Of a DNA stretch of 64,000 bases, positions 20,431 to 38,629 are shown piece after piece (positions within the stretch are counted from its first letter, which is position 1; every line of letters starts with the position of its first letter). Both the position numbers and the translations under genes were made by a program. The notes beneath the pieces are model-generated. The model had not been told where the DNA came from and did not search any database. It was given only the letters and a program-made list of their open reading frames with translations. The stretch is from the NCBI GenBank assembly GCA_944381555.1, contig CALWLL010000013.1, forward strand, positions 1 through 64,000, given 5' to 3'. This DNA is from an uncultured Agathobacter sp. (GTDB lineage: Bacteria > Bacillota > Clostridia > Lachnospirales > Lachnospiraceae).

Positions 20431-20446
20431 TTTATAATGATGATTT

Positions 20447-20480
20447 ACACCGAACGAAGAAATTTGTTCGGTGTATTTTA
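20447..20480 (+). terminator. pckA terminator
   Basis: ACACCGAAC (20447-20455) pairs with GTTCGGTGT (20466-20474), followed by ATTTTAT. The intergenic repeat starts immediately after it. Confidence 0.8.
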
Positions 20481-20522
20481 TATCATAGGAAAGACAGTAA
20501 TCGCTTTGCGATACCGTTCGGG
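20481..20522 (+). repeat. Terminator-linked repeat, short copy (B1)
   Basis: Begins TATCATAGGAAAG, then jumps to the distal part of the repeat (AGTAATCGCTTTGCGATACCG). It lacks the second inverted arm and the central segment seen at 25479-25606. It starts right after the pckA terminator. Confidence 0.65.
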
Positions 20523-20565
20523 CGCGTACTTCATTTTTAGAAATAAAAAAGTAATGAATTTCCTG

Positions 20566-20594
20566 TTGAATAAAATGATATACTAAAGTATAAT
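20566..20594 (+). promoter_or_regulatory. Promoter upstream of the 6S RNA
   Basis: TTGAAT (20566-20571), 17-base spacer, TATAAT (20589-20594). This would start RNA near 20601, about 90 bases before the predicted 6S 5' end. A weaker alternative, TTCACA-17-TACATA (20660-20688), would start near 20694. A 10-base direct repeat, ACAAGCTGCA (20624-20633, 20663-20672), lies between them. Confidence 0.5.
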
Positions 20595-20689
20595 TGATTT
20601 ATACAAATGACGAACGGGTTTTTACAAGCTGCAAAGGATAGCTTACGGAAGATAATGTATTCACAAGCTGCACAGGAAAACATACATAA

Positions 20690-20873
20690 GATGGCCTGAA
20701 ATGTGCGATAATCCTATATATTTAGAACCTACATCACTTTGAATGGGATTCCTATATGAGCTGCCGGATGTCAGGCCGCCTCGTATCAGTGGAAGGCAGA
20801 ACGCAGACTGCGGTTACCCACCTAGCATTTAGCTAGGCGTCTAAATTGTAGGAACCGGCATTTTGGGTTACAT
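20690..20873 (+). ncRNA. ssrS: 6S RNA
   Basis: About 180-nt structured RNA with 6S layout. The closing stem pairs 20694-20703 with 20859-20868 (three wobble pairs). An inner stem pairs CCTACA (20728-20733) with TGTAGG (20847-20852), and a terminal hairpin pairs CCTAGC (20821-20826) with GCTAGG (20832-20837). The stretches ATGGGATTCCTATATGAG and GTATCAGTGGAAGGCA and the CTAGGCGTCTAA end match what I recall of clostridial 6S RNAs. 6S RNA mimics an open promoter and sequesters housekeeping RNA polymerase. No good reading frame exists here, and a strong terminator follows. Confidence 0.75.
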
Positions 20874-20888
20874 AAAGAACGAAAGATA

Positions 20889-20922
20889 AAGAAGCTGCTT
20901 AGCAATAAGCGGCTTCTTTTTT
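20889..20922 (+). terminator. 6S RNA terminator
   Basis: A 13-bp stem (20889-20901 with 20906-20918, one wobble, loop GCAA) followed by a run of T to 20922. Confidence 0.88.
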
Positions 20923-20924
20923 AG

Positions 20925-21013
20925 TATCATAGGAAAGTCCGTGATGCATTAACGTGTGAAGAAAGCGGCTTTCCTATGATAAAATACTCCGCTAAGGATG
21001 TGTACCTCGCGGA
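20925..21013 (+). repeat. Terminator-linked repeat, copy B2
   Basis: Inverted arms ATCATAGGAAAG (20926-20937) and CTTTCCTATGAT (20969-20980) enclose CCGTGATGCATTAACGTGTGAA. They are followed by the shared tail CTCCGCTAAGGAT...ACCTCGCGGA, in which TCCGC can pair with GCGGA. Starts three bases after the T-run of the 6S terminator. Confidence 0.8.
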
Positions 21014-21041
21014 CATATTATGTTGAATGAAGGTAAAGGGT

Positions 21042-22691
21042 ATGAAAGAGAAGTGGAAATATAAAAAGCTATTTTATTTAATGCTTATCATAGTGGCGTT
21101 TTCTTTAGGAGTTACAGCAATCATTATATCGGGAATGATTAATGAAACGGATGGGAAAGAGGCAAAATACTGGTTTTTTGAAGAATCTATGCAGACTGGA
21201 AAAACTGTGAAGCTGGAAAATGTCTATATATACAGCGCCGAAAATAATCAGATTGAATTTTTGTACGACAATATACACTATGCAGTAGAGGGAACGCTGG
21301 CACAATCCTTTCAGGGAGTTGCCGATATTGTGATAAGCGGTGACCAAATCTCTAAGGTGCGTATTAAGCCGGATGGGGCAAGTGGTGTTCTATATTCTTA
21401 TGATGACGATTCTGTTACAGTAATCTGCGAGCCGGAGGATATAGAAACGGGTACCGACGGTGATAAAAATAAGAGCGCTGACAGTATAGAAGAATTGACA
21501 AGGGATACGGCTATTCCGATATATAAAGCAGAAGACGGCCAAATCGCTCAGGCAAACTGGAATCATATGATTGTAGGGACTTCCGAGATTTGCTGCATTA
21601 TGGAAAACGGACAGGTATGTGCAGTTATCATAGAAGAATCGCTTCCTACAGATATTCGTGTGGTGATAAAAAACGGCAGCTCTATATTTTATACTGAATT
21701 ATATGTAAAAAAACAGTCGGAGGGGACATTGGTAAATGTTTCTTCTTATATGACAGAACAAGAACTTGAGGTATTAGAACTGGATGATGATAAAGGGCTT
21801 ATATTATGTGATAAAGTTGGAAATGCACTGGGAGAAGCATATGAGGGCAGTTTTCGCATAATAAAAACAGGAAGTGGAATGGTGTTGGTAAATGAACTTC
21901 CGATTGAAACCTATGTAAAATACGTTCTTCCGTCAGAGATGCCCAAAACATTCCATGAGGAAGCACTAAAAGCACAGGCGGTATGCGCCAGAACGTTTGC
22001 TTATGATCAAATGAGCAATCAGTCATATGCCATGTATGGGGCAAATTTAGATGACAGTACTTCTTTTCAGGTATATCACGCAACAGGGCGCTTTGCCGAG
22101 ACGGATGCTGCGGTAGATGCTACAGAAGGAGAGGTTATCACCTGCAATGGCGAACTGATTACATGCTATTATTTTTCGACCAGTGCCGGCATGACCAACG
22201 ATATGAGCGTATGGGGTTCAAAAACACCAGAGTATATTAAAATATGCAGTTCAGAGGATACAGAATCGCCGTTTTACCGTTGGAAAGCGTATCTGGATAT
22301 TTCATCTGTCTGTGAAGAAGAACGTGGGAAACTAAAATCAGTGGAGGTAACGGGAAGTAATTCATCGGGTTATGTGACAGAGTTAAAACTTATATTTGAT
22401 AAAGAAACGCAGATATTAACCAAAGAAAATGACATCCGAAGAGCCTTAGGCACATATTTACAGGAAACAGTCCTGAATAATGGAAAAATCCGAACGGATT
22501 TTTCTATGATTCCAAGTGCAAATTTTACGGTAGCAGAGATTACGGATACACAGATTGTGTTAGAAGGGGGCGGATTCGGGCATGGAATTGGGATGAGCCA
22601 GTATGGCGCGAATCAAATGGCACAGAATAATTTTGGTTACAAAGCTATAATTGAGCATTATTATCATAATGTTGTTGTGAAAAATATATAA
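21042..22691 (+). CDS. SpoIID/LytB-domain protein
   Basis: 549-residue membrane-anchored protein with one N-terminal transmembrane segment (about 9-31) and an extracytoplasmic remainder. The C-terminal third is the SpoIID/LytB domain, with the conserved EALKAQAVCARTFA and the final GFGHGIGMSQYGANQMA block. SpoIID is a lytic transglycosylase acting on stripped glycan strands during engulfment; LytB-type relatives act in wall remodelling. The long N-terminal region is not in short SpoIID proteins, and no spoIIQ/spoIIID neighbours are present, so this may be a paralogue rather than spoIID itself. Start 21042 is preferred (AAGG upstream); 21027 is possible. Confidence 0.8.
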   Translation: MKEKWKYKKLFYLMLIIVAFSLGVTAIIISGMINETDGKEAKYWFFEESMQTGKTVKLENVYIYSAENNQIEFLYDNIHYAVEGTLAQSFQGVADIVISGDQISKVRIKPDGASGVLYSYDDDSVTVICEPEDIETGTDGDKNKSADSIEELTRDTAIPIYKAEDGQIAQANWNHMIVGTSEICCIMENGQVCAVIIEESLPTDIRVVIKNGSSIFYTELYVKKQSEGTLVNVSSYMTEQELEVLELDDDKGLILCDKVGNALGEAYEGSFRIIKTGSGMVLVNELPIETYVKYVLPSEMPKTFHEEALKAQAVCARTFAYDQMSNQSYAMYGANLDDSTSFQVYHATGRFAETDAAVDATEGEVITCNGELITCYYFSTSAGMTNDMSVWGSKTPEYIKICSSEDTESPFYRWKAYLDISSVCEEERGKLKSVEVTGSNSSGYVTELKLIFDKETQILTKENDIRRALGTYLQETVLNNGKIRTDFSMIPSANFTVAEITDTQIVLEGGGFGHGIGMSQYGANQMAQNNFGYKAIIEHYYHNVVVKNI

Positions 22692-22814
22692 AAAACAATA
22701 CTATTTTTTAGTAACTTTTTAAATCACTTTTTCGTTTATTTTCGGTACCGGTTGCGCTATAATGGAATAGTAAAAAAACAGCGTTTCATAGGGGAAGCGC
22801 AAGGAGGGAAAAGA

Positions 22815-24074
22815 ATGAAGAAAAGTATTATGAAAGTATTAGCTTCGATGTTAGTACTCGCAATGGCAATTACTGCATTGGTAATTCCGAATGCATCAGC
22901 AAAAGCTGCTGAGAACTATTATATTGCTGGAAGTATGCAGGGGTGGGACAATGGTAATGATGCATGGAAGATGACCCAGTCAGGTGATAATTATGTATAT
23001 ACACTTACCAGATTAGAGGCAGATGTTATTTATGAGTTTAAAGTAACAGATGGAACATGGGATAATGCTTGGCCGAGCAGTAATTATACTTTTAAGCTTG
23101 AGACAGTATCGGATGTTGTTGTTACATTTAATTCAACTTCAAAGGAAATCACTATTGCAGGTGAAGGTCTTCCGAAAACTGCTGAATATTATGTGTGTGG
23201 TAGTATGAATGAATGGGCTTTAATGCATGCTGATTATGCGATGACCAAAGTTGAGGGAAATTATGTATTAACAATCAAAGATCTTGAGGTTGGTACATAT
23301 ATGTATAAGGTTAATAATGGTACATGGAATGAAGCGTATCCGGAAAAAGATGCTGAGTTTGAGGTAAAACAGGCTGGAGAAGTTGTTATTACTTTAAATG
23401 GAACAACACATGAGGTTACAGCAACCGGCTCTGCGCTTGAAGAAATAGAAACAGAAACACCAACAGAAACTGAAACAGAAACACCAACAGAAACTGAAAC
23501 AGAAACTGAAACAGAAACATCAACTGAATCACAGACACCAACTGACACTCAGAATCCAGATGATTCAGAGGAAGAAGAAAAGAGTGATTACACTCCGGTT
23601 TACAAAGCTGCAACAATCGTAGGTGATTTCTCAAAACTTACAAATCCAAGCATTACAGCAAGCTGGGATGTGGCAAATACCGCAGCAAACATGAAACATC
23701 TTGGAAATGGTATCTATGTATATGAACTTACTTTTGATAAAACAACAGAAGAGATAACCGTTAACTACAAAGTAGCATTTGACAATTCATGGGATACAGC
23801 AATTGGTTATGACTATGAAGGAAAGAAGTTTACAACAGCCGATGGTTCAGATAACCTCTACATCACAATTCCGGCAGGAACAACATCTGTTAAGATTTAT
23901 GCAGATGAAAATGGACTGGTAGCATATAATACAATCCAGAATCCGGATGAAGCAGCCGCATTATTGGCAATTGTTTCTAAGGGTGATGCAAATATCGCAG
24001 TAATCGGTATGTTGATTTTAGCTGGCGCTGCATTAGTAGCAGTTGGTGTAATCAGCAAAAAGAAAGCTGCTTAA
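22815..24074 (+). CDS. Membrane-anchored surface protein with carbohydrate-binding-like modules
   Basis: 419 residues: a signal peptide (about 1-30, ending ASAKAA), two similar modules of about 80 residues starting YYIAGSMQGW and YYVCGSMNEW (the pattern of X25/pullulanase-type and starch-binding modules), a Thr/Glu-repeat linker (about 212-250), a third beta-rich module (about 260-375), and a C-terminal transmembrane helix followed by KKKAA. There is no LPXTG, so it should be held in the membrane with modules reaching through the wall. A role in holding starch or a similar glucan is inferred. Start 22815 follows AAGGAGG by seven bases. Confidence 0.7.
   Translation: MKKSIMKVLASMLVLAMAITALVIPNASAKAAENYYIAGSMQGWDNGNDAWKMTQSGDNYVYTLTRLEADVIYEFKVTDGTWDNAWPSSNYTFKLETVSDVVVTFNSTSKEITIAGEGLPKTAEYYVCGSMNEWALMHADYAMTKVEGNYVLTIKDLEVGTYMYKVNNGTWNEAYPEKDAEFEVKQAGEVVITLNGTTHEVTATGSALEEIETETPTETETETPTETETETETETSTESQTPTDTQNPDDSEEEEKSDYTPVYKAATIVGDFSKLTNPSITASWDVANTAANMKHLGNGIYVYELTFDKTTEEITVNYKVAFDNSWDTAIGYDYEGKKFTTADGSDNLYITIPAGTTSVKIYADENGLVAYNTIQNPDEAAALLAIVSKGDANIAVIGMLILAGAALVAVGVISKKKAA
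23447..23545 (+). repeat. Tandem repeat encoding the Thr/Glu linker
   Basis: Short imperfect units of the type ACAGAAAC(W)CCAACAGAAACTGA are repeated in-frame within the surface-protein gene. Such coding repeats are prone to slippage and length variation. Confidence 0.75.
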
Positions 24075-24098
24075 TTACATAGTAAATTAACGATACTT

Positions 24099-24128
24099 AA
24101 TCGGAGGAAGCATATGCTTTCTCCGATT
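24099..24128 (+). terminator. Surface-protein terminator
   Basis: AATCGGAG (24099-24106) pairs with CTCCGATT (24121-24128), with an inner AAGCAT/ATGCTT stem. Only a short T-rich stretch follows. Confidence 0.6.
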
Positions 24129-24154
24129 GATTTCTAATACATGTGAAAAAGTTG

Positions 24155-24319
24155 TTGACAGCAGAATAAAACTATGTTATTTTGTATGAGTTGATAACAA
24201 ACAAGTAGAGTATCCACTCTCACCTAAGCGTAATTGAGCGACTTAGAGTTCATATTTCCAACATGTATTTTTGTGTTAGAGATTTTTAGTGGATAGTCTG
24301 CCTATCCACTATTTTTTTT
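24155..24319 (+). promoter_or_regulatory. infC-rpmI-rplT leader with attenuator
   Basis: Promoter TTGACA (24155-24160), 17-base spacer, TATTTT. The leader ends in an intrinsic terminator, AGTGGATAG (24288-24296) pairing with CTATCCACT (24302-24310) before eight T. An upstream TATCCACT (24211-24218) is complementary to the terminator's 5' arm and can form the competing antiterminator. This fits the known Firmicutes L20 leader, where excess L20 favours termination. Confidence 0.8.
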
Positions 24320-24333
24320 GGAGGTACAAAGCC

Positions 24334-24840
24334 ATTAGCGAATTACAGATTAATGAACAAATCAGAGACAAAGAAGTTCGTCTTATCGGAACTGACGGAG
24401 AACAGCTTGGTATCGTTTCTGCGAAAGAAGCACAGAGACTTGCTGAGGAAGCTGGTCTTGACCTTGTAAAGATTGCTCCAACTGCGAAACCGCCTGTGTG
24501 TAAGATTATCGATTACGGTAAATATCGTTATGAACAGGCCCGTAAAGAAAAAGAAGCTAAGAAGAAGCAGAAAACTGTGGAACTTAAGGAAATTCGTTTG
24601 TCTCCAAATATTGAAGCTAACGATTTGAATACCAAAGTAAATTCTGCAAAGAAATTCATTGAAAAAGGAGACAAGGTAAAAGTTACACTTCGTTTCCGTG
24701 GCCGTGAGATGGCTCATATGAATCAGAGCAAACACATCTTAGATGATTTTGCCGAGGCACTTGCAGATATTGCAATAGTGGAGAAAGCGCCGAAGGTAGA
24801 AGGTAGAAGTATCGGAATGGTGCTGGCAGAAAAGAGATAA
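24334..24840 (+). CDS. infC: Translation initiation factor IF-3, ATT start
   Basis: IF-3 (168 residues) binds the 30S subunit and polices start-codon choice. The protein begins ISELQINEQI at an ATT codon (24334) with GGAGGT eight bases upstream (24320-24325). An in-frame ATG at 24289 lies inside the attenuator hairpin and has no ribosome site. AUU starts are a known conserved feature of infC, letting IF-3 repress its own translation. The N-domain, the Lys-rich linker (EKEAKKKQKTVELKEIRLS) and the C-domain are all present. First gene of infC-rpmI-rplT. Confidence 0.95.
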   Translation: MSELQINEQIRDKEVRLIGTDGEQLGIVSAKEAQRLAEEAGLDLVKIAPTAKPPVCKIIDYGKYRYEQARKEKEAKKKQKTVELKEIRLSPNIEANDLNTKVNSAKKFIEKGDKVKVTLRFRGREMAHMNQSKHILDDFAEALADIAIVEKAPKVEGRSIGMVLAEKR

Positions 24841-24861
24841 TACATTAAGGAGGATTTTATC

Positions 24862-25059
24862 ATGCCAAAAATTAAAACAAAAAGAGCAGCCGCAAAACGT
24901 TTCAAAGCAACAGGAACAGGAAAATTAAAAAGAAGTAAAGCGTATAAGAGACATATCTTAACTAAGAAAACAACAAAAACCAAGAGAAATCTTAGAAAAG
25001 CAGCATTGGTTGATTCAACAAATGTTAAGACAATGAAGAAGATTTTACCATATATGTAA
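24862..25059 (+). CDS. rpmI: 50S ribosomal protein L35
   Basis: 65-residue, strongly basic protein of the large subunit, with the family start [14 protein letters not shown] and the HILTKKTTK segment. AAGGAGG lies upstream. It sits 21 bases after infC and 23 before rplT, the conserved order. Confidence 0.98.
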
Positions 25060-25082
25060 GATTGTAGTAGGAGGAAAATAAC

Positions 25083-25439
25083 ATGGCAAGAATTAAAGGC
25101 GGCATGAACGCCAGAAAGAAACACAATAGAGTATTAAAATTAGCAAAAGGCTACAGAGGCGCTCGTTCTAAACAGTACAGAGTAGCAAAACAGTCAGTTA
25201 TGAGAGCTCTTACAAGTTCTTACGCTGGACGTAAAGAAAGAAAGAGACAGTTCCGTCAGTTATGGATTGCCCGTATCAACGCTGCGGCAAGATTAAACGG
25301 ACTTTCATACAGCCAGTTCATGCATGGTCTTAAATTAGCAGGAGTTGATTTAAACCGTAAAGTTTTAGCTGACATGGCAGTTACAGATGCTGTTGGATTT
25401 GCTTCTTTAGTAGAAGTTGCAAAGAGTAAATTAAACTAA
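25083..25439 (+). CDS. rplT: 50S ribosomal protein L20
   Basis: 118-residue basic protein needed early in 50S assembly. The N-terminal [15 protein letters not shown] and the [11 protein letters not shown] segment are diagnostic. In Firmicutes L20 also represses this operon by acting on its leader, which is visible upstream of infC. AGGAGG precedes the ATG and a terminator follows the stop. Confidence 0.98.
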
Positions 25440-25452
25440 TTGGAATACATCA

Positions 25453-25478
25453 GAGTCACCCGATGGGTGGCTCTTTTT
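25453..25478 (+). terminator. rplT terminator
   Basis: GAGTCACCC (25453-25461) pairs with GGGTGGCTC (25465-25473), then five T. Repeat copy B3 starts at the end of this T-run. Confidence 0.85.
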
Positions 25479-25606
25479 ATATCATAGGAAAGAACATGAC
25501 TTTCCTATGATATAAAAACGCTCTGCGAAGGATGCGCACCTCGCGGAAAGGAAGTAATCGCTTTGCGATACCGCTCGGCGCGAAAGTGTGCCGCAGGCAC
25601 ACACTT
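25479..25606 (+). repeat. Terminator-linked repeat, longest copy (B3)
   Basis: Perfect 14-bp inverted arms ATATCATAGGAAAG (25479-25492) and CTTTCCTATGATAT (25500-25513) enclose only 7 bases. Then come the tail CTGCGAAGGATGCGCACCTCGCGGA, the segment AAGGAAGTAATCGCTTTGCGATACCGCTCGG shared with B1, and a GTGTGCC-GCA-GGCACAC hairpin (25586-25602). Confidence 0.82.
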
Positions 25607-25629
25607 TTATAAAAAATATTTTTACTGTC

Positions 25630-25658
25630 TTGTCAGTTGTAAAGACATCTGTTATACT
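25630..25658 (+). promoter_or_regulatory. nadA promoter with NiaR-type operator
   Basis: TTGTCA (25630-25635), 17-base spacer, TATACT (25653-25658). Inside the spacer is an imperfect palindrome, CAGTTGT-AAAG-ACATCTG (25634-25651), i.e. CAGnTGT-n4-ACAnCTG. With niaR at the end of this gene cluster, repression by NiaR in the presence of nicotinate is the likely control. Confidence 0.65.
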
Positions 25659-25709
25659 ACTGTAGGTCAATTCAGATAAAGTATGAAAATTGACAGAAGG
25701 GAATCATAT

Positions 25710-26612
25710 ATGTCAATAGAAGAAATATTAAAGCTCAAAAAAGAGAAAAATGCAGTAATTCTGGCGCATTACTATGTTTCAGATGAGGTGCAGGAGATTG
25801 CGGATTATATCGGAGATTCGTATTACCTGAGCAAAAAAGCAAAGGAATTAGAAGAAAATGTCATAGTGTTTTGCGGTGTGTCATTTATGGGTGAAAGCGC
25901 GAAAATCTTAAATCCCCAAAAGAAGGTGCTTATGCCGGATAGGAATGCAGATTGTGCGATGGCACATATGGTAGACATAGAAAATATCAAGCGCATCCGT
26001 CAGGAATATGAAGATGTTGCGGTAGTTTGTTATATCAATTCTACTGCAAAGATAAAAGCGCATGCAGATGTGTGCGTAACCTCAGCTAATGCAGTTAAAA
26101 TTGTGCAGAGACTTTCAAATAAGAATATATTTTTTATTCCCGACGGGAACTTAGGACGTTATGTGGCAGAACAGGTACCACAAAAGAATGTAATTTTAAA
26201 TTCCGGTTACTGTCCAATCCATCATGCACTTACCCTTGAGGAGGTTTTAAAAGCCAAGAAGAAATATCCAAATGCACAATTTGTCGTACACCCGGAATGT
26301 GTCAAGGAGCTGCTTGATGAGGCAGATTATATCGGAAGTACTTCCGGTATCATCAGTTATGTGAAAAAAAGTGTGTGCAAAGAGTTTATCGTCGGAACGG
26401 AGGAAGGTGTTTTGTATGAACTTAAGAAACAAAATCCGGATAAGAAGTTCTATGTGATAAATGAGCAACAGATTTGTCAGGATATGAAGTCTATCACTTT
26501 GGATAAAATATATGATGTGCTGAAAAATGAAACCAATCAGGTTGAAATAGATGAGGGTCTCCGGCAGGCTGCGTTAAAGCCGTTGGATAAAATGCTGGAG
26601 TTAGCAAAATAG
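25710..26612 (+). CDS. nadA: Quinolinate synthase
   Basis: Condenses iminoaspartate with dihydroxyacetone phosphate to quinolinate, the second step of de novo NAD synthesis. 300 residues. The AVILAHYY start of the fold and the C-terminal iron-sulfur motif CQDMKSITLDKI are present, with further Cys in NADCAMAH and GYCPIHH. Start 25710 follows an AAGGGAA; an in-frame ATG 27 bases earlier would add a basic tail absent from the family. First gene of nadABC-niaR. Confidence 0.96.
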   Translation: MSIEEILKLKKEKNAVILAHYYVSDEVQEIADYIGDSYYLSKKAKELEENVIVFCGVSFMGESAKILNPQKKVLMPDRNADCAMAHMVDIENIKRIRQEYEDVAVVCYINSTAKIKAHADVCVTSANAVKIVQRLSNKNIFFIPDGNLGRYVAEQVPQKNVILNSGYCPIHHALTLEEVLKAKKKYPNAQFVVHPECVKELLDEADYIGSTSGIISYVKKSVCKEFIVGTEEGVLYELKKQNPDKKFYVINEQQICQDMKSITLDKIYDVLKNETNQVEIDEGLRQAALKPLDKMLELAK

Positions 26613-26621
26613 GATACCGTT

Positions 26622-27944
26622 ATGAATACAGACATATTGATAATTGGCAGTGGCTGTGCAGGATTGTACTGTGCATTACAACTGCCGGAAGAAAAAAAGA
26701 TAACAATTATTACAAAGTCAGATTTAGAAAGCAGTGATTCTTTTCTTGCGCAGGGTGGTATGTGTGTACAGAGAGATGAATCAGATTATGAAAGCTTTAT
26801 GGAGGATACGTTAAAGGCAGGACATTATGAGAATGACCGTCATGCAGTAGATGTCATGATTCGTTCCTCAAAGGATGTATTGGCAGATTTGCTTTCTTAT
26901 GACGTGGAGTTTAATAGGGATGAGGATGGAGAACTTCTTTATACGAGAGAAGGTGCGCATTCAAACAAGAGAATCCTGTTTCATGCAGATATTACCGGAA
27001 AAGAGATTACAAGTAAACTTTTAGCTGCTGTAAAAAAATTATCGAATGTAACAATCTATGAACATACAGCTATGATTGACCTGCTGGTGAAAGAAAATCG
27101 GTGCTATGGAGCAGTTATAGAGAATGCGGATAGTGAGATAGAGCTTATTACAGCAGAAACTACCGTTCTTGCTACCGGTGGAATTGGCGGTTTGTATGCA
27201 CATTCTACAAATTTCAGGCATTTGACAGGTGATGCATTGGCTCTTGCTGTGAAATATGGCATTGCGCTGAAGGATATTGATTACATACAGATACATCCGA
27301 CTACCTTTTATACCAAGGATAAAACAGAGAGAAGTTTTTTGATATCGGAATCTGTTCGTGGAGAGGGAGCAAAGCTTCGTGATAAGAATGGAAACCGTTT
27401 TGTTAATGAACTTCTGCCGCGCGATTTGCTTACGAAAGCAATCCTAGAGCAGATGGAAAAAGACAATACGGAGTTTGTCTGGGAGGATCTTAGAGAGATT
27501 CCGGAGGAGGAACTAAACAGCCATTTCCCGAATATTGTAAAGCATTGCAAAGAGCATGGCTATGATGTCAGAAAGGAATGTATCCCGGTAGTTCCGGCCC
27601 AGCACTATTTTATGGGCGGAATCAAGGTGAATGATGTAAGTAAAACTTCTATGGAAGCATTATATGCAGTTGGAGAAACTGCCTGCAATGGCGTACATGG
27701 GAAGAACCGTCTTGCCAGCAATTCATTATTAGAAAGTCTGGTATTTGCAAAACGTGCCGCAAAGGATATTAGCAAAGAAAATACGGGACTTGAAAAAACG
27801 AAGCCTGCGGATATATATACGGAAGAGTACTGGCAGATGTTTCTGCGGAAAAATATGCAGGCCTATAAAGAAGAACAGGCATTGAAAGAAAACTATAAAG
27901 AATTAGTATTAAATGAAATAGAGAAAGCAAAAGAAGCGAGGTAA
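26622..27944 (+). CDS. nadB: L-aspartate oxidase
   Basis: FAD enzyme oxidising L-aspartate to iminoaspartate, the substrate of NadA. 440 residues, shorter than the 510-540 of many homologues because the C-terminal helical region is reduced; this short form is usual in Clostridia. The FAD-binding GSGCAGLYCA (about 8-17), the QGGMC segment and the HPTTFY active-site stretch are present. In anaerobes fumarate is the expected electron acceptor. It starts nine bases after nadA. Confidence 0.95.
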   Translation: MNTDILIIGSGCAGLYCALQLPEEKKITIITKSDLESSDSFLAQGGMCVQRDESDYESFMEDTLKAGHYENDRHAVDVMIRSSKDVLADLLSYDVEFNRDEDGELLYTREGAHSNKRILFHADITGKEITSKLLAAVKKLSNVTIYEHTAMIDLLVKENRCYGAVIENADSEIELITAETTVLATGGIGGLYAHSTNFRHLTGDALALAVKYGIALKDIDYIQIHPTTFYTKDKTERSFLISESVRGEGAKLRDKNGNRFVNELLPRDLLTKAILEQMEKDNTEFVWEDLREIPEEELNSHFPNIVKHCKEHGYDVRKECIPVVPAQHYFMGGIKVNDVSKTSMEALYAVGETACNGVHGKNRLASNSLLESLVFAKRAAKDISKENTGLEKTKPADIYTEEYWQMFLRKNMQAYKEEQALKENYKELVLNEIEKAKEAR

Positions 27945-27947
27945 ACG

Positions 27948-28811
27948 ATGCGATTTGATGAAATTACTTTAAAACTAAATGCGGACCCTCTGATTCAATC
28001 GGCAATTCGTGAGGATATTACGAGTGAGGATGTATCTGCAAACAGTGTTATGCCGGCAGCTATGCAGGGGGAGGTAGACCTTATTTGTAAACAGGATGGT
28101 ATTATTTGTGGTCTTCTGGTTTTTGAACGTGTGTTTAAGCTTTTGGATGAAAAGACAGAGGTGGAATTTTATGTAAAAGATGGAGATGCAGTAACAAAAG
28201 GACAGTTAATGGCAAAGGTTCGGGGCGACATCCGTGTGCTTCTCGGCGGAGAGAGAACGGCGCTTAATTACCTTCAGAGAATGAGCGGGATTGCGACATA
28301 TACCCGTTCTGTTGCAGACTTGTTAAAGGGAACAAAGACGAAGCTGTTAGATACCAGAAAAACAACTCCAAATAACCGTATTTTTGAAAAATATGCAGTA
28401 ACAGTCGGTGGGGGAAATAACCACAGATATAACCTTTCAGACGGTGTATTGTTAAAGGATAACCATATCGGAGCTGCCGGCAGTGTAAAAAGAGCCATTG
28501 AGATGGCGAAGGAATACGCGCCGTTTGTCCGAAAAATTGAAATAGAAGTAGAGACCTTAGAGATGGTAAAAGAAGCTGTAGATGCGGGAGCGGATATTAT
28601 CATGTTAGATAATATGACGCATGAACAGATGAAAGAAGCCATTCGCATTATTGACGGAAAAGCTGAAATTGAAGTGTCCGGTAATGTTACAAAAGAAAAT
28701 ATAGAAAGATTAACCGATCTTGGTGTGGACTACATTTCCAGCGGTGCATTGACACACTCAGCACCGATTCTGGATATTTCCTTAAAGAATCTTCATGCAG
28801 CAGAAGCATAG
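27948..28811 (+). CDS. nadC: Nicotinate-nucleotide pyrophosphorylase
   Basis: Converts quinolinate and PRPP to nicotinate mononucleotide, CO2 and PPi. 287 residues. Active-site signatures are GERTALNYLQRMSGIAT, DTRKTTP and GGGNNHRYNLSD with the downstream KDNH. It starts three bases after the nadB stop, so translation is probably coupled. Its stop codon touches the structured repeat that leads into niaR. Confidence 0.97.
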   Translation: MRFDEITLKLNADPLIQSAIREDITSEDVSANSVMPAAMQGEVDLICKQDGIICGLLVFERVFKLLDEKTEVEFYVKDGDAVTKGQLMAKVRGDIRVLLGGERTALNYLQRMSGIATYTRSVADLLKGTKTKLLDTRKTTPNNRIFEKYAVTVGGGNNHRYNLSDGVLLKDNHIGAAGSVKRAIEMAKEYAPFVRKIEIEVETLEMVKEAVDAGADIIMLDNMTHEQMKEAIRIIDGKAEIEVSGNVTKENIERLTDLGVDYISSGALTHSAPILDISLKNLHAAEA

Positions 28812-28912
28812 TGTGAAAAATAAATTTCTCAAACGGCAATGTACGTCGGCACGCTGCTTGGCTTAAAGCTGCATATATGAAAAAAAGCGGCGCAGAAATG
28901 GAGATTAATATG
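28811..28912 (+). repeat. Structured intergenic repeat ending in a start region (A2)
   Basis: Runs from the nadC stop to an ATG at 28910 and aligns along its whole length with 38167-38266. The GTGTGAAAAATA start, the ACGGCAAT block and the GCGCAGAAATGGAGATTAA end are shared. GCTGCTT (about 28852) can pair with AAGCGGC (about 28886), leaving the GGAG ribosome site just beyond the stem. Confidence 0.7.
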
Positions 28913-28933
28913 AATTGGAAAGGGCAGGTATGA
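28910..28933 (+). other. Possible seven-codon mini-ORF coupled to niaR
   Basis: The ATG supplied by the repeat (GGAG six bases upstream) opens a seven-codon frame (MNWKGQV) whose TGA overlaps the niaR ATG in an ATGA arrangement. It may couple niaR translation to ribosomes loaded at the repeat. Translation is not demonstrated. Confidence 0.3.
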
Positions 28934-29478
28934 ACGGAGAACAGCGCAGGGAACAAATTGTTTGGATAATTAAAAATAGTGCAGAACCCGTATCCGGTAC
29001 GGCGTTGGCAAAACAGGTAAATGTCAGCCGGCAGGTCATCGTGCAGGACATTGCCCTGTTACGCGCAAATGGAGTGGATATTATTTCTACAAACCGGGGT
29101 TATATTATTGGAAAACATGGCAAAGCAAGCCGTGTGTTTAAGGTGATTCATACACCGGAACAGGTAGAAGAGGAATTGAATCTGTTTGTGGATTTTGGCG
29201 GATATGTTAAGGATGTATTTGTATATCACAAGGTATACAATGTGCTGAAAGCAGATATGAATCTGAAATCCCGTGCAGATGTCCGCAGATATATCAGTGA
29301 ACTTGCGGCAGGTAAATCCAGCCTTCTTATGAATGTAACTTCGGGCTATCATTATCATACGATTTTGGCAGATGATGAAGAAACGCTCGACATTATTCAG
29401 GAAAAGCTATGGGAAAAAGGTTTTCTCGCTAAGCTTAAGGAATATGAACCGGTAGAATTTGGAAAAAGAAATATGTAA
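28930..29478 (+). CDS. niaR: NiaR transcriptional repressor (HTH_11 and 3H domains)
   Basis: Niacin-responsive repressor of NAD synthesis and salvage genes, 182 residues. The N-terminal winged helix (about 5-60, SGTALAKQVNVSRQVIVQDI) is followed by the 3H ligand domain with His residues in VYHKVYN and SGYHYHT that bind metal and nicotinate in this family. It closes the nadABC cluster it should control, making an autoregulated operon. Start 28930 gives the normal length and has AAAGGG upstream; a TTG at 28915 is a less likely alternative. Confidence 0.93.
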   Translation: MNGEQRREQIVWIIKNSAEPVSGTALAKQVNVSRQVIVQDIALLRANGVDIISTNRGYIIGKHGKASRVFKVIHTPEQVEEELNLFVDFGGYVKDVFVYHKVYNVLKADMNLKSRADVRRYISELAAGKSSLLMNVTSGYHYHTILADDEETLDIIQEKLWEKGFLAKLKEYEPVEFGKRNM

Positions 29479-29483
29479 ATGAC

Positions 29484-29515
29484 GAAAGGGGCATCAATTC
29501 TGTGATGCCTCTTTC
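29484..29515. terminator. Bidirectional terminator between niaR and AraC gene
   Basis: A 13-bp stem (29484-29496 with 29503-29515, one wobble) followed by TTTGCG on the plus side. It includes the last codons of the convergent AraC-family gene. Confidence 0.75.
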
Positions 29516-30336
29516 TTTGCGTTGCGGTATTCTTTTGGTGACATTCCTTTTTCCTTATGGAAAGCCTTGGAGAAATATAAGCTGTTGTCAAAGCCGATAG
29601 AATTGGCAATGGCTGTAATGGATAGATCCGAGCGTTCCAGTAAAAGGCAGGACTGCTTGATGCGAAAATCCGTCAGGTATTCTTTTGGGGATACACCTAG
29701 AACTGTTTGAAAGGAGCGGAACAGGTGGCTGCGGCTTAATCCGACATAGGAGGCGATGTCTTCTACCGTAATCGGATAGGAGTAGTTCGCTGTGATGTAT
29801 TCAATTCCTTTTTGAACATAGCTTTGCGCAGTATTAGAATGGGTCTGCTTTTTGGCATTGTGCATCAGGATCGCAAGCGTAGTGTAGAGGCGTCCGGTCA
29901 TTTCTACCGCGTGTTCAAATTCATTGCCGCGAGCATCATATATTTTTAATATTTGATTTTGAAGAGCCTTGCCTTCCGGTGTGTTTTGAATCACAGGTGA
30001 GGTTTTTGAGAAATCCGTTGCCTGTAGGATAATGGCCGCATCACTCCCGGCAAAACCTACCCATGCATATTCCCAGGGATTTTGTTCGGCGGCGTAATAA
30101 GTGACTTCTGTATTAGGGTATACCAGAAAACAATCGCCGGCCCGCAGATGGAATTTTATTCCGTTTACATGATAATAGCCTTCGCCTGCAATAATATAAT
30201 GGATCAGATAATGGTCCCGGATACCCGGTCCCCACTGATAGAGAGGGTCGCATTTTTGAAAACCGACATTATATACAGAAAGTGATATAAGCTCTTTTTC
30301 CGATACGATATAAGAGTTTTTATAGTTTTGAATCAT
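29494..30336 (-). CDS. AraC-family transcriptional regulator
   Basis: 280-residue regulator with an N-terminal cupin sensor (about 20-140; the HYHVNG/GDCFLVYP pattern typical of sugar-responsive members) and a C-terminal double helix-turn-helix (about 180-275; IASYVGLSRSHLFRSF and IANSIGFDNSLYFSKAF). Divergent from galE across about 190 bases, so it may control galactose or other sugar use; the ligand is unknown. The start at 30336 has AAAGGA seven bases upstream; two earlier in-frame ATGs lack this. Confidence 0.88.
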   Translation of the reverse strand: MIQNYKNSYIVSEKELISLSVYNVGFQKCDPLYQWGPGIRDHYLIHYIIAGEGYYHVNGIKFHLRAGDCFLVYPNTEVTYYAAEQNPWEYAWVGFAGSDAAIILQATDFSKTSPVIQNTPEGKALQNQILKIYDARGNEFEHAVEMTGRLYTTLAILMHNAKKQTHSNTAQSYVQKGIEYITANYSYPITVEDIASYVGLSRSHLFRSFQTVLGVSPKEYLTDFRIKQSCLLLERSDLSITAIANSIGFDNSLYFSKAFHKEKGMSPKEYRNAKKEASQN

Positions 30337-30522
30337 GGCAATCCTTTCCGGAAACTTTTTCATAAAGGTCAATAATGGTCTATATATTTATTATATAGTA
30401 AAAACAACTTTATGCAACATTTTTACATATAATTCATACATTTATGGATATACATTTACAGAAGTTTGAGATATGATTAGTTCAAAGAAAACAAAAAAGA
30501 TGCAAAGGAAAGGAGATAAAAT

Positions 30523-31539
30523 ATGGCTATTTTAGTTACAGGCGGAGCAGGTTACATTGGAAGTCATACATGTGTAGAGCTGTTAGACGCAGGATATGAT
30601 GTCGTTGTTTTGGATAATTTAAGCAATTCGTCAGAAAAATCATTGGAGAGAGTGGAAGCCTTAACCGGGAAGAAGGTAAAATTCTACAAAGGTAACATTT
30701 TAGACAGAGATATCCTGAATACGATTTTTACAAAAGAAAGCATTGAAAGCTGTATCCACTTTGCAGGCTTAAAGGCAGTGGGCGAATCCGTTGCAAAGCC
30801 TTGGGAATACTACGAAAATAACATTGCGGGAACATTGACGCTTGTAGATGTTATGCGGCAGAATGATTGTAAAAACATCATTTTCTCATCATCCGCTACT
30901 GTTTACGGAGACCCGGCCGAGATTCCGATTACAGAAGAATGTCCAAAAGGACAGTGTACCAATCCATACGGCTGGACAAAGTCTATGTTAGAGCAGATTC
31001 TTATGGACATCCAGAAGGCAGACAAGGAGTGGAATGTGATTCTGCTTCGTTATTTCAACCCAATCGGGGCGCATAAGAGTGGCATTATGGGTGAAAATCC
31101 AAATGGTATTCCAAATAATCTGATGCCTTATATAACACAGGTTGCAGTCGGAAAATTAAAAGAACTCGGAGTATTCGGCAATGACTATGATACGCCGGAC
31201 GGAACCGGAGTACGCGACTATATCCATGTCGTTGACCTTGCAAACGGACATGTGAAAGCATTAAAGAAATTAGAAGAGAATGTCGGGCTTGGCATCTATA
31301 ATCTTGGAACCGGACGCGGATGCAGTGTTATGGAGCTTGTAAAGAACTTTGAAGAGGCTAACGGCATAAAAATTCCTTATGTAATAAAAGAAAGAAGACC
31401 GGGAGATATCGCAACCTGCTATTGTGACCCTGCAAAAGCAAAAAGGGAACTCGGCTGGGAAGCACAGTATGGAATCCGTGAAATGTGTGAAGATTCCTGG
31501 AGATGGCAGAAGAACAACCCGAATGGCTATGAGGAATAG
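30523..31539 (+). CDS. galE: UDP-glucose 4-epimerase
   Basis: Interconverts UDP-glucose and UDP-galactose for the Leloir pathway and for envelope glycans. 338 residues. NAD-binding GGAGYIGSH (about 6-14), the SSSATVYG segment and the catalytic Tyr/Lys pair in NPYGWTKS are intact. AAAGGAG lies upstream. galK and galT are not present; a membrane protein gene follows after about 40 bases. Confidence 0.97.
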
Positions 31540-31582
31540 AAACATACTGGTAAATGTGTGTTTATCCATAGGAAGTAGAAAA

Positions 31583-32359
31583 ATGCAAAAATTTATATGT
31601 AGATGTGTAATAGCCTGGATATTCCCAATCGCTTATTTCTGGCTTTTCAAAAGTGATGCAATGTTTTATTCTATTGTATTCCTGCATGGCTGGTATAATG
31701 TTTTTGCAGTAGTGACGGCATTTCTCATTGGTAAGCGTAATTATTTTGGGATTTTCAAATGGATTGCACCACTCGTAATAGGTGTTATGAATGTAATGAC
31801 CTATCCTGTAACCTTTGGTCTGTTACACGACATAAACTATGGTAAATTTGAGTTTTTTGATATAGATATTAGAACACTGATTCATCATGTTGTTTTGTCT
31901 TTTGTAGGGTTAGTGGCAGGTGTTATCATCGGTTTCATAGTGAATCGTGCAAAAGAACAGGAATCCAAAAGCGTTCTTTTTAATATTCCGGGTTGGATGT
32001 GGGGTGTTTTCATTGCATGGATATTTCCCATTATTAAATTTTGGGTTTTTGATTTTGATACCATATTCTTTTCTGTGTTTTTGTATATTTGGTATATGCT
32101 GCTGGCTTTTTTGGCATCCGCTCTCATTGGAAGAAGAGGCTCTCCTGGGGTGCATAAATGGTTACAGGCGGTTATTCTGCTTCTTATGAATATGGTTGTA
32201 TATCCTCTGACTGTTGGGCTGGTTGAAATGCAAAAAGGCAGTATGAAAGACCTGATTGATATCAAATATATTGTGGCGCAAGTGATAATTGTTGCGGTCG
32301 GTTTTCTTATGGGGATGTCCGTTTGTTATATTTGTAATAGAAAAGCCATAAAAGAATAG
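31583..32359 (+). CDS. Internally duplicated membrane protein, unknown
   Basis: 258-residue membrane protein built from two tandem copies of about 130 residues. Each copy holds AWIFPIxxFW, then a segment ending in ALIG/FLIG with a basic RxxxGxxKW, then MNxxxYPxTxGL, followed by a hydrophobic segment ending in an Asn/Arg turn. About four membrane helices per half are likely. I do not recognise the family. Start 31583 (AGGAAGT upstream) removes a long frame overlapping galE. It ends in its own terminator. Confidence 0.7.
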   Translation: MQKFICRCVIAWIFPIAYFWLFKSDAMFYSIVFLHGWYNVFAVVTAFLIGKRNYFGIFKWIAPLVIGVMNVMTYPVTFGLLHDINYGKFEFFDIDIRTLIHHVVLSFVGLVAGVIIGFIVNRAKEQESKSVLFNIPGWMWGVFIAWIFPIIKFWVFDFDTIFFSVFLYIWYMLLAFLASALIGRRGSPGVHKWLQAVILLLMNMVVYPLTVGLVEMQKGSMKDLIDIKYIVAQVIIVAVGFLMGMSVCYICNRKAIKE

Positions 32360-32363
32360 ATTT

Positions 32364-32395
32364 CAGGGTCAGCGTTTGCTGACTCTGGAATTTTT
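32364..32395 (+). terminator. Terminator after the duplicated membrane protein
   Basis: CAGGGTCAGC (32364-32373) pairs with GCTGACTCTG (32378-32387), loop GTTT, followed by GAATTTTT. Confidence 0.75.
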
Positions 32396-32417
32396 GCTAA
32401 AATTTTATAAAAAACAC

Positions 32418-32446
32418 TTGTATTTTTTCTTTTAACATGGTATAGT
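32418..32446 (+). promoter_or_regulatory. tRNA-Glu promoter
   Basis: TTGTAT (32418-32423), 17-base spacer, TATAGT (32441-32446), ten bases before the tRNA 5' end. Confidence 0.65.
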
Positions 32447-32456
32447 ACTCAAGCAT

Positions 32457-32528
32457 GGTTCGTTGGTCAAGCGGTTAAGACGTCGCCCTCTCACGGCGAA
32501 AACACGGGTTCGAGTCCCGTACGAACTG
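32457..32528 (+). tRNA. tRNA-Glu (anticodon CTC)
   Basis: 72-nt cloverleaf. The acceptor stem GGTTCGT pairs with ACGAACT (G-T at the first pair), the discriminator base is G, and the anticodon stem TCGCC/GGCGA encloses CTCTCAC, giving anticodon CTC for GAG. The T-arm ACGGGTTCGAGTCCCGT is standard. CCA is not encoded. It is a single-gene transcript with its own promoter and terminator. CTC is the less common Glu anticodon; a TTC isoacceptor presumably exists elsewhere. Confidence 0.95.
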
Positions 32529-32533
32529 CTAAG

Positions 32534-32560
32534 AACTACTTCGGTTGAAGTGGTTTTTTT
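32534..32560 (+). terminator. tRNA-Glu terminator
   Basis: AACTACTTC (32534-32542) pairs with GAAGTGGTT (32547-32555) around GGTT, followed by a T-run. Repeat copy B4 begins at its end. Confidence 0.8.
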
Positions 32561-32561
32561 T

Positions 32562-32663
32562 ATGTCATAGGAAAGACCGTGATACATTAAAGTGTGAAAG
32601 AGAACAACTTTCCTACGATATAAAAAAGCTCCGCTAAGGATACGCACCTCGCGGAAAGGAAGT
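32562..32663 (+). repeat. Terminator-linked repeat, copy B4
   Basis: TCATAGGAAAG and the imperfect arm CTTTCCTACGATA enclose CCGTGATACATTAAAGTGTGAA (compare B2). The shared tail CTCCGCTAAGGATACGCACCTCGCGGA and AAGGAAGT follow. It starts at the end of the tRNA terminator's T-run. Confidence 0.8.
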
Positions 32664-32835
32664 ACTTGCATTTGACAGTGTTTCTGCCCATGAGATGCTT
32701 TTATCTACTCTATGGTAAGAAAAATGTCTATGTTTTGGAATAATTTTCTGCCCATATGCAGTTGTGTCATCGCTTGTGGTTAGAAACACAGGGTATTTTG
32801 CTGCAAGTGTCAGTACCGATATGTAAAGAAAAAAC
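32664..32835. other. Unexplained spacer with direct repeats
   Basis: No gene or known RNA recognised. It holds TTTCTGCCCAT twice (32681-32691, 32745-32755). ACTTGCATTTG at its left edge (32664-32674) is repeated at 32835-32845, where it contains the -35 of the rimP promoter. An inverted GTGTTTCT/AGAAACAC pair is also present. It may be a decayed or duplicated promoter region. Confidence 0.4.
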
Positions 32836-38139: not shown

Positions 38140-38166
38140 GCGCCCAAAACAGCAAAGAAAGGCTTG

Positions 38167-38266
38167 GTGTGAAAAATAGATTTTTCACACGGCAATTTGA
38201 GTCTGCGCGCTGCCCGGCCCAAATTGCGTATGCGCAAAAAGCAGCGCAGAAATGGATATTAAAATG
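38167..38266 (+). repeat. Structured intergenic repeat ending in the rbfA start (A3)
   Basis: Best-preserved copy. GTGTGAAAAA-TAGA-TTTTTCACAC (38167-38190) is a perfect 10-bp hairpin. GCAATTTG (38192-38199) is complementary to CAAATTGC (38220-38227), and CTGCGCGCTGC (38203-38213) nearly matches GCAGCGCAG (38241-38249). The last two pairings interleave, so they are either alternatives or a pseudoknot. The element ends AGAAATGGATATTAAAATG, the rbfA start. Confidence 0.75.
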
Positions 38267-38629
38267 AGAAAAAATAGTATCAAAAATATTCGTATTAACG
38301 AAGAGGTTATGAGAGAGCTTTCCAATATTATACGCGGGGAAATCAAAGACCCGCGTATAAATCCGATGACCAGCGTTATTGCGGTGGAGGTTGCTCCTGA
38401 TTTAAAAACAGCAAAAGCATATATCAGCGTACTCGGTGATGAAGAATCGCAGAAGGATACCATTGCAGGTTTGAAAAGTGCAGAAGGATTTATCCGTGTG
38501 AAGCTGGCGAAAGCTATTAATTTGCGTAATACACCGCAGATTACATTTGTACCAGACCAGTCTATTGAATATGGCATCGCTATGTCAAAGAAGATTGATG
38601 AAGTGATAAAAAAGGAAGATACGGAATAA
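38264..38629 (+). CDS. rbfA: Ribosome-binding factor A
   Basis: 121-residue KH-fold factor that matures the 30S subunit, especially the 5' end of 16S rRNA. Diagnostic segments are RINEEVMRELS and KDPRINPMTSVIAVEV. The ATG at 38264 is preferred over one 12 bases earlier because the same AGAAATGG-n-ATTA-n-ATG arrangement marks the start regions of niaR and ktrA. It is unusual that rbfA runs directly into truB without the DHH-family nrnA gene often found between them. Confidence 0.94.
   Translation: MRKNSIKNIRINEEVMRELSNIIRGEIKDPRINPMTSVIAVEVAPDLKTAKAYISVLGDEESQKDTIAGLKSAEGFIRVKLAKAINLRNTPQITFVPDQSIEYGIAMSKKIDEVIKKEDTE

Follow-up and report, generated by a model that had tools for sequence, protein, structure and literature searches.

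Excerpts of published accounts describe several bacterial systems with which a short dispersed repeat can be compared. Group IIC introns insert behind intrinsic terminators (PMC4424553). The Bacillus cereus repeats (BCR, bcr1) are 100-400 bp long, occur in many copies, and their movement has been linked to a TTTAT motif (PMC6542083). REP elements are palindromes dispersed in high copy, and those associated with RAYT carry a GTAG/CGTC tag (PMC3733652), while the SPRITE, BOX and RUP elements of the pneumococcus nest in each other, SPRITE being terminator-like (PMC10969869). Here we describe a repeat element from a stretch of 64,000 nucleotides of an uncultured Agathobacter sp. of the Lachnospiraceae (assembly GCA_944381555.1, contig CALWLL010000013.1, positions 1 to 64,000 of the forward strand; henceforth the window), which contains four copies, B1 to B4, each situated at an intrinsic terminator. 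The copies belong to a real and widespread family that is most likely mobile, and they probably represent a non-autonomous mobile element of the Lachnospiraceae, about 100-200 bp in length, which inserts in the T-tract just behind intrinsic terminators and shares their orientation. The observations behind this reading are the anatomy of the element, its dispersed copies in many species, their position and orientation behind terminators, and the presence of element-free terminators in a close relative.

Aligned copies of the family, which span roughly 100-200 bp, are composed of a palindrome (P1), an A-run, a conserved tail in which the stems P2-P4 lie, and a terminator hairpin (P5) that closes the element. 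From 5' to 3' the T-run of the host terminator is followed by P1, the A-run, the small hairpin P2, AGGATGCGCAC, P3/P4, P5 and TTTGTT. P1 has the core ATAGGAAA/TTTCCTAT and the layout ATATCATAGGAAAG, a loop of either 7 or ~32 bases, and CTTTCCTATGATAT; P3/P4 form a two-part stem whose internal loop is asymmetric (GGA..GAA); P5 together with its T's is terminator-like. When read in reverse, P2 with the A-run also resembles a short terminator. Copies from other genera have different bases with the order of the parts unchanged. The orientation of the element is that of the upstream terminator, and in tandem arrays the P1 of the next copy begins directly at the P5 T-tract of the preceding one. RNAalifold recovered P5 (8 pairs) and otherwise just two pairs near P2 from a 27-sequence core, since the MAFFT alignment is out of register in P2-P4; the stems were therefore counted sequence by sequence.

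The genome from which the window derives (G000), a draft of 2.31 Mb, contains 67 exact occurrences of the arm ATCATAGGAAAG and none of the reversed pattern. A covariance model built from eight copies identified 69 places in it at E <=0.1, some of which are the same palindrome on the opposite strand. Distinct copies with a readable upstream flank were obtained by joining model matches with arm matches, leaving out four copies truncated at contig ends, one of the two ways of reading locus L167 and the model matches C15:17805 and C3:29844, which were judged chance. By our own scoring an intrinsic terminator lies directly upstream of 49 of these 57 distinct copies, with 5-7 nt between the end of the stem and the element in 43 of the 49. 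The corresponding figures in controls are 367 of 20,000 random window positions (128 of 8,000 in another run) and 39 of 397 T-runs of five or more. The bases preceding the arm in the 57 copies are TTAT (21), TCAT (8), TTCT (8), TTTT (4), TTGT (4) and others (12), and many copies are decayed. The element also occurs at contig ends of draft assemblies: in this genome contigs C10, C13, C23, C25, C27, C30 and C45 start or finish in or right beside a copy, and the copy number is therefore probably underestimated.

Exact arms proved a misleading measure of how far the element has spread. They gave 0-4 matches per congener, and exact palindromes were detected in 5 of 397 family genomes, including that of the window; G425, a 98% complete genome of another genus, has 54. 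In the species collection exact palindromes occur in 68 stretches, from Roseburia, Blautia, Lachnoclostridium, Eubacterium and Lachnospiraceae, Clostridiales and Eubacteriales bins. Two matches, L116 (Clostridium bin) and L136 (Sphingobacterium), have neither an upstream terminator nor a tail and were judged chance. As the arms differ by species, such a search understates the spread, and the covariance model finds the element in far more genomes: 39 of 60 of the genus (counting the window's genome) and 90 of 299 Lachnospiraceae genomes, or 89 of 298 sampled genera, a survey in which 9 candidates were scored per genome, so that copy counts are at least those recorded. From a class-wide draw of 147 genomes two match, the window's own and a second from the same family. 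Copy counts in the genus survey are uneven, with 43 in the window's genome, 41 in G475, 22 in the one-contig genome G034 and 0 in 21 of the 60. A terminator lies upstream in 27 of 28 representatives from 28 other genera and in 22 of 25 congeners (loci L258-L261 of the genus and L317 of G340 were not entered, and L233 and L239 duplicate L266 and L280). The same holds for 11 of the 14 listed copies in G034 (of 22) and for 15 of 20 copies in G475 (of 41), a count that left out two places near contig ends and one tandem neighbor. A phage or plasmid origin was rejected, given that the exact palindrome has no match in viral contigs and the element none in the plasmids or phages searched. No Rfam 15 family reaches gathering score at the element in the window or at 49 element loci; at E <=1 in 4 loci one tRNA and two weak L20_leader matches were seen, all beside the element. 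No published description was found among titles in a literature search, and a 12-mer of the element turned up in two unrelated papers.

Within the window, the first-pass annotation had described four repeat copies, three with an inverted partner arm, each beginning at a terminator, and sequence matching bears this out, with the full element being longer than described there. The arm is exact at 20482, 20926 and 25481 and has one mismatch at 32564; its inverted partner is found at 20969, at 25500 and, with one mismatch, at 32608, and is missing from B1. B2, B3 and B4 carry the tail CTCCGCTAAGGAT..ACCTCGCGGA, with B3 and B4 82-85% identical to B2, and the distal block TAATCGCTTTGCGATACCG is common to B1 and B3. 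Chance repeats were rejected on the absence of the reversed arm pattern from the genome and on an arm search of the window that, allowing up to 2 mismatches, gave 24 matches as against a mean of 8.5 (standard deviation 2.9, maximum 16) in shuffles. A separate terminator scan, which called 19 sites as against 8.1 in shuffles, places stems 5-6 bases before the arm at all four sites, and matches to the genes that had been named at these sites were obtained, that to pckA under the curated cut-off.

All four sites and copies are on the forward strand. B1 (20480..20550, its 3' end approximate) retains the first arm, the P4 block and the right half of P3, with the middle missing, and lies behind the scanned terminator (20446..20475) of a pckA-type gene, whose carboxykinase match (E 4e-37) is under the curated cut-off. 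B2 (20924..21013) comprises P1 with the long loop, the A-run, P2 and the start of P3, the remainder being missing, and adjoins the terminator of the 6S RNA (20888..20919; Rfam and terminator scan). B3 (25479..25612; model match of 115.7 bits), with a P1 loop of 7 bases and a complete tail, follows the terminator (25452..25474; terminator scan) between the genes matched as L20 (rplT) upstream and NadA (nadA) downstream, and is alone among the four in keeping the element's own closing terminator-like hairpin, P5 (25586..25602; terminator scan). B4 (32562..32660) has P1 with the long loop, the A-run, P2 and the start of P3, lacks the 3' part, and is located behind the terminator of tRNA-Glu (32531..32558).

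Other repeats were encountered in the same DNA. A second interspersed repeat of ~105 bp, CGCGCTGC..GGC..AAA then GCGCAGAAATGGA, occupies 28806-28913 and 38162-38267 of the window, and part of it is also found in L044 beside an element copy. Blocks of the TTTCTGCCCATATGCAG...TGGTTAGAAA type, possibly another repeat, occur behind element copies (window 32670-32830; L181). At the left edge of the window a perfect 22-bp inverted repeat (1-22 and 1630-1651, arms 1.6 kb apart) possibly marks the ends of an insertion sequence.

The nearest relative seen, G461 (94% at rplT), in which no element was scored (84% complete, strict filters), has three of the four window terminators without the element. Its 6S RNA gene has a homologous terminator and downstream gene with no element (L335), and element-free terminators are present before nadA (L262) and behind tRNA-Glu (L263); at the pckA site synteny is lost in the stretch compared, so that three sites entered the comparison. 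At the tRNA-Glu site the window's genome has ~165 further bases beyond the element that are absent from G461; the blocks noted at 32670-32830 lie there. Across the genus, where 52 of 60 genomes were matched at rplT, the element is absent behind this gene in 28 of the 29 congeners compared, and it is also missing behind the 6S RNA in 11 congeners whose stretch passes the terminator (14 were compared; in G003, G035 and G466 the stretch stops short of it). These empty sites imply that the terminator preceded the element, which was most likely gained in the lineage of the window's genome. Together with the enrichment at terminators they support a small mobile element targeting terminators, which fits best among the explanations offered in the first-pass annotation. 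In several congeners (L330, L331, L337-L343) a run of spaced ACAAAAGA/ACGAAAGA motifs was noticed between the 6S RNA and its terminator.

The conservation of the stems bears on whether they act as DNA or RNA. A stem kept as RNA tolerates G-U but not A-C, whereas in one kept as DNA both are equally mismatches. Such pairs were counted with a symmetric stem finder in 182 copies, with a host stem in 153 and P1 in 179; stem-pair and palindrome-foot counts exclude L130 along with the two chance matches L116 and L136. Over all copies the G-T to A-C ratio is 195:25 in host terminators, 63:9 in P5, 27:40 in P1, 16:21 in P2 and 32:34 in P4, and in 53 representatives (one copy per genome) it is 53:6, 11:1, 8:10, 5:11 and 10:8, respectively. 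The P2 and P4 figures are rough as the automatic windows often caught a neighboring stem, which also happened in one P1 window (L254), and the P5 imbalance comes from just 18 different stems carrying G-T and 8 carrying A-C, copies within a genome being related. P5 thus looks like a working terminator, to judge from its sequence. P1 in the 53 representatives has 722 of 748 pairs Watson-Crick, and the lack of a G-U excess among its imperfect pairs makes it look like a DNA feature. Its outer six bases take 28 forms in 40 representatives and are complementary at 238 of 240 positions, as against 126 (at most 146) with shuffled partners. This count covers the 40 representatives with a TAGGA..TCCTA core; most of the 13 without it remain palindromes on visual inspection. 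The 52 different P1 arms among the 53 also reflect stem length, making the hexamer forms the cleaner count. P1 therefore covaries strongly, but seemingly as a DNA palindrome rather than an RNA stem. The earlier idea that the inverted arms serve as back-up RNA hairpins finds no support in the P1 ratio when set against that of host terminators, and the back-up terminator, where one exists, is P5 and not P1.

The feet of the palindrome show a further pattern. The outermost P1 pair in G475 is A/T in 6, G/C in 10 and non-complementary in 4 of 20 copies (Fisher p=0.006 on the 19 A-or-G copies), and is unlinked to loop relatedness (mean loop distance 5.29 within and 5.39 between). Among 109 copies of several genomes positions -2/+2 are complementary in 71 as against 59 shuffled, an excess that comes from other genomes (53 of 81 vs 42.6) and not the window's own (18 of 28 vs 16.4, p 0.18). 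Positions -3/+3 are complementary in 86 as against 81 shuffled (p 0.04), and the other five foot positions in these copies have no significant excess. This hints that one arm acquires its junction bases by copying from the other, whether during insertion or afterwards.

The retention of G-U pairs in P5, whereby some closing hairpins terminate, and the resemblance of the reversed P2 with the A-run to a short terminator would also be expected if the element were a host-selected 3' regulatory element (a back-up terminator, an RNA 3'-end protector or an antisense terminator) that spread by its usefulness. We regard this as very unlikely, given that P1 is not conserved as RNA, many copies are decayed, two or fewer copies were scored in 33 of the 60 genus genomes, and copies follow the terminators of riboswitches and T-boxes that precede coding genes. 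In the window's genome Rfam matches put a T-box leader (L023), a SAM riboswitch (L161) and an FMN riboswitch (L025) each directly ahead of a copy, and two more T-boxes score under the curated cut-off of 93 bits (L166, 88.8 bits, E 4e-19; L060, 65.7 bits, E 3e-13). A Roseburia metagenome-assembled genome has a copy behind a T-box (L125; Rfam), and a Blautia SAM riboswitch (L108) scores 43.3 bits, just under its 44.4-bit cut-off. Among the window genome's five leader copies, P3-P5 survive in L023 alone and are missing from the other four; this fits an element that inserts regardless of use and later loses its tail wherever the tail is harmful, five cases proving nothing. In the Roseburia genome repeated GGAAGCTGCCGGTGGCAGGTTCCGTAAGT-like blocks lie beside element copies at L117, L121 and L122, where Rfam scored no T-box, and one such block precedes an IleRS-like start by eye.

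Neither of the two enzyme families searched as a mobilizer, Y1 transposases and reverse transcriptases, has a consistent link to the presence of the element; the genomes named as lacking a Y1 transposase are 69-98% complete. A Y1 (HUH) transposase of the REP/RAYT or IS200/IS605 kind could move the element as single-stranded DNA hairpins, in keeping with P1 behaving as a DNA hairpin, its adjoining a T-rich target, a fixed orientation, inverted arms that are not at the two outer ends, and the 7 Y1_Tnp matches in G034 with its 22 copies. This remains quite unlikely: Y1_Tnp has matches in 8 of 20 genomes, including the element-free G004 and G470, but none in the window's genome or in G475, G481, G466 and G031 (20-41 copies each; 69-94% complete), and the single one in G425 is broken. 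Alternatively, a retro-type route has been considered, in which a read-through 3' extension RNA ending at P5 is reverse-transcribed and inserted behind terminators in the manner of group IIC introns. The target is of the kind reported for these introns in the excerpt of PMC4424553, P5 is kept as an RNA terminator, and RVT_1 is present in 6 of 8 genomes, with one match in the window's own. This route too is unlikely, since RVT_1 has no match in G425, with its 54 exact palindromes (98% complete), nor in G350 (91%), P1, P2 and P4 have no G-U excess, and no Rfam intron match was obtained at the copies scanned.

Several observations weigh against an element mobilized to terminators. No mobilizing enzyme was found, the search having covered the Y1 transposase and RVT_1 families and not others; the enzyme was possibly lost, or belongs to a family outside these. 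A terminator was not called at 8 of the 57 copies in the window's genome, of which two have weak hairpins with T-runs (C30:15761 and L172), two a T-run only (C7:95305 and L016), one a terminator inside the model match with the tail directly behind (C4:6263), and three no called terminator (C56:155418, C61:113648 and C58:3443); the same applies to 3 of 14 copies in G034 and 5 of 20 in G475. In G461 rplT and nadA are separated by ~2.2 kb of other DNA, and neither a target duplication nor an exact 3' boundary was fixed, the flanks downstream of the empty sites having diverged. Some sites are common to different species: G464 has a decayed P1 behind rplT, and a Blautia copy lies in a metK leader, as in the window's genome (metK by eye). 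Such sharing arises either by descent or by repeat insertion. Finally, template-switch correction of near-palindromes can keep palindromes perfect, and could do so for P1, without any element-specific enzyme.

A terminator-directed mobile element would move in trans through an enzyme, and this enzyme or an intermediate would read P1, and perhaps P2-P4, as DNA hairpins and not RNA. The target would be the hairpin and T-tract of a terminator, perhaps as a fold of single-stranded DNA; after insertion P5 could serve as a second terminator, with the remaining element decaying. More tentatively, and in our estimate with less than even odds, the element might typify a mobile class that moves as a folded DNA hairpin, reads terminators as folded DNA targets and copies junction bases into the other arm. 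Were this true, terminator recognition would have arisen outside group II introns. To our knowledge, insertion behind terminators as a safe-haven strategy is known only from group IIC introns. On the whole, the observations suggest that terminator recognition by the element works in a way not yet described, and identifying its enzyme would yield a terminator-reading system, perhaps one at the DNA level. For the host, the element means extra hairpins and often a second terminator behind its genes, and T-box and riboswitch leaders are among the places it enters. At the copies scanned it matches no Rfam family.

By its features the element qualifies neither as a group IIC intron, nor as a REP/RAYT element, nor as a classic miniature inverted-repeat transposable element (MITE). 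It shares with REP/RAYT the dispersed high-copy palindromes, but its feet are a T-run and an A-run in the copies inspected, with no GTAG/CGTC tag, and the Y1 transposase is absent from several genomes with many copies. Like MITEs, including the pneumococcal SPRITE, BOX and RUP, it is short, structured and multi-copy, with 57 distinct copies in the window's genome; its inverted arms, however, enclose only P1 at the left end and not both outer ends, and no parent insertion sequence was found for it (SPRITE was compared by description, not by sites). With bcr1, compared by description only, it has in common many short copies and the bases before the arm, often TTAT, but bcr1 belongs to Bacillus, in another class, and in the present element the flank varies whereas the terminator is constant. 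The closest likeness in target is to the group IIC introns, as both insert just behind intrinsic terminators. The element differs in being just 100-200 bp long, in being abundant in a genome without RVT_1 (G425), and in showing no match to a ribozyme core with domain V: neither the window nor 49 element loci gave an intron family at gathering score, nor did 4 loci at E <=1. A far smaller element does the same as group IIC introns, and in the Lachnospiraceae it occurs in 89 of the 298 genera that were sampled.

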